A DNA stretch of 64,000 bases from Sorangium cellulosum. Lineage in GTDB: Bacteria; Myxococcota_A; Polyangia; Polyangiales; Polyangiaceae. Positions 17,507 to 43,144 of this stretch are shown here, piece by piece. The stretch is from assembly GCF_004135735.1 (NCBI RefSeq), contig NZ_CP012670.1, forward strand, positions 7,146,501-7,210,500. The letters are read 5' to 3'. The stretch's first letter is position 1; every line of letters starts with the position of its first letter. The notes beneath the pieces were generated by a model, which ran no database searches, had not been told where the DNA came from, and saw only the letters and a program-made list of their open reading frames with translations. Made by a program: the position numbers and the translations under genes.

Positions 17507-18020
17507 GGCGGCGTCACCTCCGCGAGACGAGCGCTGCCCGGCGCCCCGCTGCGGCTCGCCTCGCCCGGCGGGCCGGGCGGCGTCTCCGACGCTCGCCAGA
17601 CGGTCTTCCGGCAACCCTTCGAGCCGCCCGGGGGCCTCCCCCGCTCGCGACGAGCGCGAAGACGAGCGCGAAACCGAGAGGACGGCGCGGTGGGCGCGAA
17701 CCTCCGGGAAGGCCGATGTGAATCGTGCTCGACAGGTCAGGCTCCTCCTCGACATGTCAGGCTCCTCTCGGTCATCACGCGCATCACGCGCATCACGCGC
17801 GTGGACGTTCGCGTCCAGCGGATCGAGAGGGGTGCGTCGAGGAGCCGATGCGCTGCCCTGACGCGGCGGACGGATCCCGGCGTCACGGGACGAACACCGT
17901 CTCTCGGGCCGGGCAGCTCGGCAGGCCCTACCGCGCTCCCGCGCGAGCAGCGCGGGACCAGGACAACATGCTACCAGCCCGGCCGGGGCGCCGCGGCGCC
18001 CGGGCTCGGCGCCGAGCGGC
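17507..18020. other. Intergenic, 514 bp, with short repeats
   Basis: No supported gene. Three tandem copies of CATCACGCG occupy 17773-17799, and CAGGCTCCTC occurs twice between about 17736 and 17768. Open frames here are GC-driven chance frames without starts or domains. Confidence 0.5.
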
Positions 18021-28020: not shown

Positions 28021-28159
28021 GGCGGAAGCGAACGCTCCCGAAGGCGTCTGGCTGGGCCATGCTGGGCCCGGCAGGGAATGTGACTCGGCCGAACAGCAAC
28101 CGGAGACCATTGAAAGCACTGCTCTTCCCGTCGCGCATCCCTCGGCACCAGCGACGTTG

Positions 28160-28271
28160 CCCAAGCTCGTCCCGGGTTCGTCGCGGGGGGGGGGCCGGAG
28201 CGCAGGCGGGCCCCAAAAGGAGCCCGCCGGAGCGCAGGCCCCGTGATCGACGACCCCGGGACGAGCTTGGG
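28160..28271. repeat. 112-bp element bounded by perfect 17-bp inverted repeats
   Basis: CCCAAGCTCGTCCCGGG at 28160-28176 and its exact reverse complement at 28255-28271; pairing continues inward for about 7 more bases with one mismatch. Inside, a direct repeat CCGGAGCGCAGG occurs twice and GGCGGGC/GCCCGCC form an inner hairpin with AAAA near the loop. It could be a MITE-like element or a structured RNA. Confidence 0.7.
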
Positions 28272-28810
28272 GGACGACGTACTAGCTCCGCCAACGTCTG
28301 GTCGTTCTTCTTCCAGCAGCGTGATCAGCGCCTCTGAGCCCTACGCGCTCGAGTTGCCTGCGAACCCTGGTCGAATGCGACCGCTCCTCCGAGCGCGTCG
28401 TCCTCAAGTGCCCCTTCGCCTTGCCTTCCGTGCACGCGTCGACGCCCGCCGATTGCCTCATACTGATACTATTCCGGCCAGCGACCGCAAACTCTCACGT
28501 GTCCGCCGTCGGCTCACCCGAAACACCTGAGTTTCGTGGGCCCATATAAACAATTGACCTACGATCGCGCCCGGTGGAAGCGACGTGCCTGCGGCGCGGA
28601 AGTCGACGAATTTGCCGTATAAAATGAGGGGATCTGTCAGGTACGGACCCATGCGGCAGGCAGCAGCATCAGCGATGCGACCGTCCCTCCCGACCAGGCT
28701 CAGCTTGTACCAAGCCCGGCTCACACCCGTCGTCGCCTCAGCTCCTGCCAACCGCCCGTGCAACAGGCCCCGGGCTCACTGCCACAGGGTGTGTGGCGTG
28801 ACACGAGGTG

Positions 28811-36011: not shown

Positions 36012-36194
36012 GGATTCTCTCCCCTCCGCGACCTCGAGGCGTTGCGCCACGGAGTGGTTCGATGCGATCACGCCGCCGCGCGCGGGGGTCAAGCCCTGGG
36101 CCCCTCTGACGCGCTGCTACGCGCCCCGGTTCATGGGAGATGGGCCGAGCCTAGAGGGAGGAAGGGTCCGATGGCGTCCCTCGGAACGGCGGTA

Positions 36195-36344
36195 GGCCCG
36201 CGGCGAGGGGGTTCTCCGCGCGGGGTGGGGACGGGCCGTGTCCGAGCCCAGGAGATCTGTCTCCTCCGGCTCTGCCGAGGAGACAGATCTCAGGCGAGCT
36301 CGGCGGGGCCCCACCCCGCGCGGAGATCCACCTCGCCGCGGGCC
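36195..36344. repeat. 150-bp long palindromic element, copy 1
   Basis: Outer arms 36195-36230 and 36309-36344 (36 bp, two mismatches; arm begins GGCCCGCGGCGAGG). The inner stem is 36252-36266 with 36277-36291, a perfect 15 bp (GAGATCTGTCTCCTC), with a 10-nt loop. On the minus strand its spacers match those of the element at 42830-42992 (CCCCGCCGAGCTCGCCT and GGGCTCGGACACGGCCCGT). It lies between the SGNH and ferritin-like genes; the rest of the 435-bp spacer has no gene. Confidence 0.92.
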
Positions 36345-36446
36345 GGGCAGCCCGGCACAACCTCTCTCCCCTCCCTTCCCTCCCCTTCCCTTCTCCCTTC
36401 CCCGCGCCCGCGCCCGCGCCCGCGCCCGCAGCCCCCGCCGCCCGCC

Positions 36447-42768: not shown

Positions 42769-43144
42769 GGGGCGCCTGGGGGGTGTGGCCGGGGGCGCCT
42801 CGGTGGGGGAAGGTCTTGCCGAGCTGTCCGGCCCCCGGCGAGGGGGTTCGTGGGGCGGCGCGGGGGCCCCACCGAACTCGCCTGGGACGTTCTTTCACCG
42901 GCGTGCGGGGCACGCCGGTGAAAGAACGTCAATTGAGGCTCAGACATCGGTCCGTCCCCCGCGCCGCCCCACGAACCCCCTCGCCGGGGGCCTACCGTGG
43001 TTCCACGAGGATCATCGAGCCCGAATCGTCGCTCGGACAGCGGCCATCGCGCGGCCAGGGCGCCGCGGGCGCGGGACGCGGCCTCCCGGCCGGCGGCGCT
43101 CGCCTGCTGGACGCGCTGGAGGGCGATCTCTAGGATGCGGGCTC
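42769..43144. other. Intergenic, 376 bp, upstream of the defence island
   Basis: Largely occupied by palindromic element copy 2. The remaining about 150 bp before the NACHT gene is GC-rich with AGGATGCGGG as a possible ribosome site. Confidence 0.5.
42830..42992. repeat. 163-bp long palindromic element, copy 2
   Basis: Outer arms 42830-42866 and 42956-42992 are perfect 37-bp reverse complements (beginning GGCCCCCGGCGAGGGGGTTC). An inner stem, 42886-42906 with 42910-42930, is a perfect 21 bp closing a 3-nt GGG loop. Spacers CCCCACCGAACTCGCCTGG (42867-42885) and TTGAGGCTCAGACATCGG onward (42933-42955) match those of copy 1 at 36195-36344, read on the opposite strand. There is no T-run, so it is not a standard terminator. 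It ends about 150 bp before the NACHT gene. Confidence 0.95.

Follow-up and report, generated by a model that had tools for sequence, protein, structure and literature searches.

Two palindromes with a shared scaffold and unlike stems

Two long palindromes lie in opposite orientation within a 64,000-nt stretch of the Sorangium cellulosum genome (the window; positions 7,146,501-7,210,500 of the genome called G000 here). They share a scaffold and differ in the parts that pair with themselves, which raises the question of how arms that change so fast stay matched. An earlier sequence-only reading of the window proposed selection on the fold of an RNA or a single-stranded DNA, or else a mobile element with a variable hairpin. 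The evidence below indicates that the arms most likely remain complementary through DNA copying from one arm to the other, and not because an RNA needs its shape.

Among the 65 inverted-repeat pairs found in the window (distance up to 200 nt), the two hairpins rank first (copy 2, arms of 46 nt with 93% complementarity) and second (copy 1, 44 nt, 89%), and the 21-nt inner arms of copy 2 are 100% complementary. The proposed homology of the copies is borne out, with copy 1 on the plus and copy 2 on the minus strand, and their inner hairpins differ in both sequence and length as described at the outset. The shared parts, originally given as the ends of the outer arms and the two spacers, are confirmed but had been drawn too narrowly: a CGGTA foot and a tail of ~20 nt are also common to both copies (Table 1). 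Between the tail of copy 1 and the neighboring stop codon, positions 36395-36435 hold a pyrimidine-rich stretch and CGCCCG repeats.

Table 1. Parts of the palindromic element in the window
Feature	Positions	Strand	Basis
Copy 1, full shared unit	36190-36364	+	
Copy 1, CGGTA foot (GTAG with the next base)	36190-36194	+	
Copy 1, outer 5' arm, 36 nt	36195-36230	+	
Copy 1, conserved 5' spacer ACGGGCCGTGTCCGAG, core strand 1	36231-36246	+	
Copy 1, inner hairpin, 5' side	36251-36266	+	
Copy 1, inner hairpin, 3' side	36277-36291	+	
Copy 1, conserved 3' spacer GGCGAGCTCGGCGGGG, core strand 2	36293-36308	+	
Copy 1, outer 3' arm	36309-36344	+	
Copy 1, conserved tail; 82 nt to stop codon 36447 of a minus-strand gene	36345-36364	+	own gene finder
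Copy 2, full shared unit	42810-42997	-	
Copy 2, CGGTA foot	42993-42997	-	
Copy 2, outer 5' arm, 37 nt	42956-42992	-	
Copy 2, conserved 5' spacer ACGGACCGATGTCTGAG	42939-42955	-	
Copy 2, inner hairpin, 5' side, 21 nt	42910-42930	-	
Copy 2, inner hairpin, 3' side, 21 nt	42886-42906	-	
Copy 2, conserved 3' spacer GGCGAGTTCGGTGGGG	42867-42882	-	
Copy 2, outer 3' arm	42830-42866	-	
Copy 2, tail; 41 nt to stop codon 42768 of a plus-strand gene	42810-42829	-	own gene finder
Probable remnant of a third copy: outer end of 3' arm and tail	17889-17929	+	by eye

A dispersed family within and beyond the genus

Both window hairpins belong to a dispersed family of palindromic elements of ~150 bases. A search of G000 (11.26 Mb, a single contig) with a 150-nt query returned 17 full or nearly full copies, the two window copies among them. 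Given this number and a best non-self E value of 3.7e-38 in the 11.26-Mb genome, the likeness of the window hairpins is not a matter of chance. A covariance model built from the 17 copies (R1) added divergent ones, and the host genome holds, roughly, at least 20-25 copies; because 150 candidates were scored per genome, the copy counts are lower bounds. From among the matches listed, 93 oriented ones were taken, and 86 of these carried the core pattern described below. The analyses use 85 core-bearing copies from six genomes of the genus, L121 being left out as a partial tandem copy.

The family occurs in all six of these genomes (G000-G005) and in 0 of 53 other genomes at a blastn E value of 1e-6 or lower. 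A second model (R2, from 52 copies) was run with strict filters against 108 genomes of the taxonomic family, of which 10 matched, namely the six of the genus and four from other genera, and 98 gave no match. The seven loci in the four outside genomes keep the core, with TGTYYGAG and CGAGTTC on one strand in 7 of 7, and their arms look different by eye. A tree of the copies shows partial clustering by genome; window copy 2 groups, with weak support, with L096, L097, and L098, which have longer inner hairpins, and with the G003 copies L127 and L137. Exact matches to the 5' spacer in contigs of Mycolicibacterium and Acidobacteria, from a sequence set that may omit records of the source or of a very near genome, had no comparable nested hairpin around them and were taken as chance. 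The literature searched, which covered few subscription journals, held no description of the family.

The sequence-only reading had staked its case on further copies and on covariation. Both were found: beyond the copies in G000 and elsewhere in the genus, an RNAalifold analysis of the 17 G000 copies gave 64 pairs, 30 of them with a two-sided change that kept the pairing. Its view that the element is repeated, with a scaffold that stays constant while self-paired parts are exchanged, is supported.

Anatomy of the element and its conserved core

Each copy is a nested palindrome in which a long outer arm (~35-42 bp) leads into an asymmetric internal loop of conserved sequence, TGTYYGAG...CGAGTTC, and then into an inner hairpin of ~15-29 bp that varies. 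From its 5' end, the unit consists of (C/G)GTA, the outer arm, GGG(A)YGGGCYG(W)TGTYYGAG, the inner hairpin, CGAGTTCRGC, the outer arm again, and the tail. TGTYYGAG plus CGAG is present in 81 of 85 copies, a figure that is partly by construction because the rows were chosen with a looser core pattern, and GTAG lies within 22 nt around the foot in 60 of the 85. Terminal inverted repeats, a feature of MITEs, are present. For the TGAG/CGAG of the loop, a sheared-GA or k-turn arrangement is noted as a candidate reading.

We read the tail as part of the element rather than as a prior target site, though not firmly. The idea of a pre-existing target hairpin was set aside, as many CCGRGCTGCCCGGC matches were seen by eye to accompany copies or remnants. 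This pattern has 28 matches in the genome versus 8 for a control pattern, and CCGGGCTGCCCGG is found at two short, element-less sites in G000.

Some related structures were observed in passing. In L121 (~2061-2192) and L019 (~1501-1552), the 5' arm and spacer are partly repeated in tandem, as if from hairpin slippage. The window also contains a long nested hairpin at 28152-28279 with a weak R1 match (26.8 bits) and the inner text CCGGAGCGCAGGCGGGCC. By eye it resembles L093:8041, L099:4788, and L120, the inner part being common and the outer arms different, and together these are perhaps a second nested-palindrome family. A repeated palindrome of ~130 bp is found beside the main family (L090:3733-3860, and near copies in L095, L098, L125, L132, L151, and L157); in L211, an orthologous site, its place is taken by a hairpin that looks similar. 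Another repeated stretch, up to ~290 bp long, lies close to copies of the element in L089, L097, L105, L107, L109, and L147.

Wobble pairs are concentrated near the loops

Wobbles were counted in the 85 copies from local alignments, which can clip mismatched ends, and recounted without clipping (84 copies for the outer arm; L116 was skipped). In the local alignments, outer positions 9-36 contain 2274 pairs (2247 Watson-Crick, 4 G.T, 7 A.C, 16 other), outer 37-44 contain 107 with no wobble or mismatch, and inner 11-30 contain 869 (6 G.T, 2 A.C, 2 other). The unclipped recount gave 2174 pairs at outer 9-34 (2128 Watson-Crick, 9 G.T, 10 A.C, 27 other) and 509 at inner 11-16 (498 Watson-Crick, 4 G.T, 1 A.C, 6 other). 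Distal G.T pairs thus amount overall to 10 of 3250 locally and 13 of 2683 unclipped, or 0.3-0.5%, with 98-99% Watson-Crick pairs, and they show no strand preference (10 G.T versus 9 A.C locally, 13 versus 11 unclipped). As a control, 14 of 143 pairs (9.8%) are G.U in six tRNAs from the same DNA, a small set based on RNAfold structures.

Near the loops, outer positions 1-8 contain 15 G.T, 0 A.C, and 4 other mismatches among 680 pairs, and inner positions 1-10 contain 52, 2, and 10 among 845, with G.T at 42 of the 420 pairs of inner 6-10. The G.T excess over the distal parts has a Fisher p of 1e-15 for inner 6-10 and of 4e-7 for outer 1-8. These wobbles are strongly polar, with 67 G.T versus 2 A.C locally and 70 versus 2 unclipped, where other mismatches number 29 instead of 14. 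A cruder, position-blind count gave 58 G.T versus 4 A.C in the inner and 27 versus 11 in the outer arms, and the polarity is weaker under plain ungapped pairing of the 62 distinct loop-near inner stems, with G.T in 38 and A.C in 6. In RNAfold structures, the basal pairs of the inner stem (positions 18-21) also contain wobbles, 13 in 250 pairs, as do the pairs of foot and tail (14 of 212 at outer 37-46, against 8 of 2294 at outer 9-36), so that to call the wobbles exclusively loop-near is a simplification.

Comparison of orthologous sites, whose flanks are ~80-95% identical, shows where the element changes. In 17 site pairs, the core strands are 91 and 94% identical and the outermost arm 89%, outer positions 1-8 are 77% identical and outer 9-20 only 53%, and the loop-near inner stem is 54% identical and the remaining inner stem 77% (gaps allowed). 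When only base pairs formed in both copies are taken, so that broken pairs are excluded, 18 orthologous pairs have 137 base pairs changed on both sides, 33 changed on one side, and 793 unchanged. The orthologous pairs include some that the tree does not place as sisters and that may reflect independent insertion; the seven whose members also stand close together there (L139/L158, L138/L169, L131/L145, L160/L166, L156/L164, L125/L154, and L103/L149) have 44 two-sided versus 14 one-sided changes. By eye, changes in arm length are matched in both arms in L148, L150, L152, and L154. In 43 of 69 copies, the reverse complement of the inner-loop triplet is found in some other member of the family (crude null 15.4, p 0.016), which lends weak support to loop inversion; GCA, the commonest inner loop, is never seen inverted.

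DNA copying between arms as the probable source of compensatory change

Selection on an RNA stem should leave G.U pairs throughout, and the very few found in the distal arms point instead to DNA copying. Copying one arm from the other removes wobbles and yields two-sided changes and indels in one step, which fits the pattern in the arms. We favor, with moderate confidence, a reading in which the element is a dispersed, non-coding, REP/MITE-like palindrome whose arms are matched by template switching and which spreads in trans. A newly made strand would fold back, the 8-10 bp nearest the loop of either hairpin would pair, and the folded strand would then copy the rest of the arm from itself, spreading changes to the partner arm. 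It would mainly be this loop-near priming zone that is left uncorrected and keeps its wobbles.

Template switching does not explain the loop-near polarity or the conserved core. Generic fold-back copying is expected on both strands alike, and some further cause must lie behind the 67:2 polarity; the presence of non-wobble mismatches near the loops also counts against such copying. The one-sided polarity and the conserved core together suggest that a folded single strand is used by a specific factor. The strand bearing TGTYYGAG...CGAGTTC would be the one that folds when the element is in use, and its core in folded form would be read by this putative factor. To this extent, the earlier proposal of selection on an RNA or single-stranded DNA fold stands, since use of a folded single strand is likely in the conserved internal loop and in the pairs next to the loops, and only there. 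For the remaining arms, that covariation shows such selection is not supported: distal wobbles are nearly absent, and G.T there is about as frequent as A.C.

The alternative that survives best, although we regard it as unlikely, is a structured RNA (a 3'-UTR, antisense, or regulatory RNA) whose pairing is under selection and whose internal loop is a functional motif. Strong covariation, an internal loop conserved across genera, G.T polarity near the loops, and siting beside stop codons would all be accommodated by such an RNA, but the near absence of distal G.U (10/3250 and 13/2683 versus 14/143 in the tRNAs) and its lack of polarity would not. In 71 of 82 copies, the strand that tolerates wobbles runs antisense to the gene on the tail side and so is not the 3'-UTR of that gene; in the 41 convergent cases it would be the 3'-UTR of the foot-side gene. 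In addition, the window contains no Rfam 15 family at gathering score, and an Rfam search of five loci at E values up to 5 gave only microRNA hairpins, below gathering score.

Rather less probable is that the core is an active device, with the core-bearing strand folding and an element-specific factor driving self-primed DNA synthesis, begun at the loop-near stem, by which copies keep rewriting their own arms. If this were true, arms could be hypervariable yet matched, and the element would represent a new, sequence-independent way of hairpin upkeep.

Most copies in the genus lie just past gene ends

Genes were called with a home-made codon-score gene finder trained on the genus, not taken from annotation. 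Among the 85 copies, the tail-side neighbor is antisense to the element in 71, sense in 11, and uncalled in 3. A median of 27 nt separates the tail end from the stop codon of the 71 antisense neighbors, and in 57 of these the stop lies within -25 to +60 nt of the tail; foot-side neighbors are further off (median 167 nt when sense and 259 nt when antisense). Both neighbors were called in 80 copies: 41 are flanked by convergent genes, and 28 follow the upstream member of a codirectional pair. The orientation bias is also seen in codirectional pairs alone (28 versus 6, p 0.0002). Location downstream of coding regions, a feature of REPs, is therefore found within the genus. Outside it, the siting rule fails: the foot side lies 14-20 nt past a stop codon in three of seven loci, and in the other four the neighboring stop, called with the genus-trained finder, is unclear or further away.

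Under the template-switching account, copies would be spread by a putative enzyme acting in trans and would settle immediately downstream of genes, where a hairpin would be fairly harmless. There they may also act on transcript ends.

Gain, loss, and decay at orthologous sites

At the L160 site, G001, G004, and G005 have the element, G000 and G002 have only a short site, and G003 carries a different palindrome of GTCGTG type (by eye). At the L145 site, G001, G003, and G004 have the element, G000 and G005 are short, and G002 has another hairpin (by eye). Four orthologous sites are short and have no long palindrome. In L198 and L295 (G003), long palindromes of GTCGTG/CACGAC repeats stand where relatives have the element or its remnant.

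For nine G000 copies, 40 matching gene ends were examined in the other five genomes; some stops were extrapolated, and the 76-77% matches to the L096 gene may be paralogues. None of the 40 had the core pattern in the same orientation within 330 nt. Near the L082 gene, G005 has an element ~195 nt away in the other orientation and G003 has a piece resembling an inner hairpin. About six gene ends hold collapsed remnants by eye (L084 in G004 and G005, L092 in G001 and G003, and L093 in G004 and G005), and 19 gene ends for L090, L091, L095, and L096 show no trace within the 160 nt inspected. The pattern of presence and absence, together with the collapsed remnants, indicates that copies come and go and that some decay by internal deletion. 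Orthologous flanks are too diverged for a target-site duplication to be read.

These data also bear on a more doubtful possibility, that the element is a bidirectional terminator or mRNA-end protector that each species renews with any palindrome at hand. The placement of 41 of 80 copies between convergent genes and of 28 after an upstream codirectional gene would suit this role, as would the different long palindromes that take the place of the element at two orthologous sites (by eye) and in G003 at a third. However, there is no clear U-tract (T makes up 22% of the 15 nt past the foot, in the direction of the tail-side gene, and 11% past the tail), the four short sites have no long palindrome, and the conserved core is left unexplained. 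It is very improbable that the element is a single-strand recombinase site like an integron attC, with gene and element moving as a cassette, for although copies lie just past a stop codon, have one folded strand that is antisense to the gene and a variable but self-paired sequence, and in some site pairs share only the stop-side gene, the attC end boxes RYYYAAC and GTTRRRY occur in 0 of 93 copies, the copies are mostly far apart (bar one pair ~165 nt apart), and distance by itself would lead one to expect the nearer gene to be shared.

Conserved RNA folds are usually proved by covariation; in this large natural family, if arm copying by template switching is the correct reading, abundant compensatory change seems to be made at the level of DNA. 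The diagnostics are simple: in the varying parts G.U is almost absent and strand polarity is lacking, and the wobbles lie mainly near the loops. The family would allow the template-switch account of compensatory mutation to be tested in a bacterium, would warn against taking such alignments for RNA genes, and would point to a putative mobiliser or core-binding factor.

Comparison with known systems

Integron attC sites adjoin a stop codon; the present elements differ from them in having no attC end boxes and in being mostly far apart. The folded bottom strand and the little conservation of sequence are points of likeness, as far as attC sites are characterized in the portion of PMC2727003 used here.

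The nearest known kinds are the GTAG-tagged REPs and YPAL/RU-2. The element shares tag, siting, and palindromy with REPs and departs from them in size and transposase. It works like a REP/MITE-type repeat, which is a resemblance only, membership not being established. A RAYT/IS200 mobiliser was considered and rejected: in a search that covered Y1 transposases only, PF01797 exceeded the Pfam cut-off in 0 of the 6 genus genomes, with two weak ORFs (~21 bits) in G001 and G004.

In the part of PMC3733652 drawn on here, GTAG-tagged, RAYT-associated REPs are 20-40 bp long with stems of 6-13 bp. Like them, the element has GTAG at one foot of a palindrome, many copies, and positions downstream of ORFs, between convergent or codirectional genes. 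Unlike them, it is ~150 bp long and nested, with an outer arm of ~36 bp and a conserved internal loop, and the RAYT of REPs has no counterpart here among Y1 transposases over the cut-off (PMC3733652, same part).

YPAL/RU-2 of Yersinia, at ~168 bp, is similar in size, palindromy, intergenic copies, the occurrence of empty and filled sites, and a possible effect on upstream transcripts (PMC2229807, in the sections consulted). Target duplications are reported for YPAL, whereas none is readable here, and the same sections of PMC2229807 do not describe arm renewal or a conserved internal loop.

Template switching in hairpins is presented in the relevant passages of PMC8794818 as a source of perfect stems, compensatory changes, and loop inversion. 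The palindromes described here resemble those cases in having several compensatory changes at once, perfect stems, and, with weak support, loop inversion. The cases in these passages are RNA genes (rRNA and microRNA), whereas the present family consists of dispersed intergenic DNA with arms of ~36 bp (PMC8794818).
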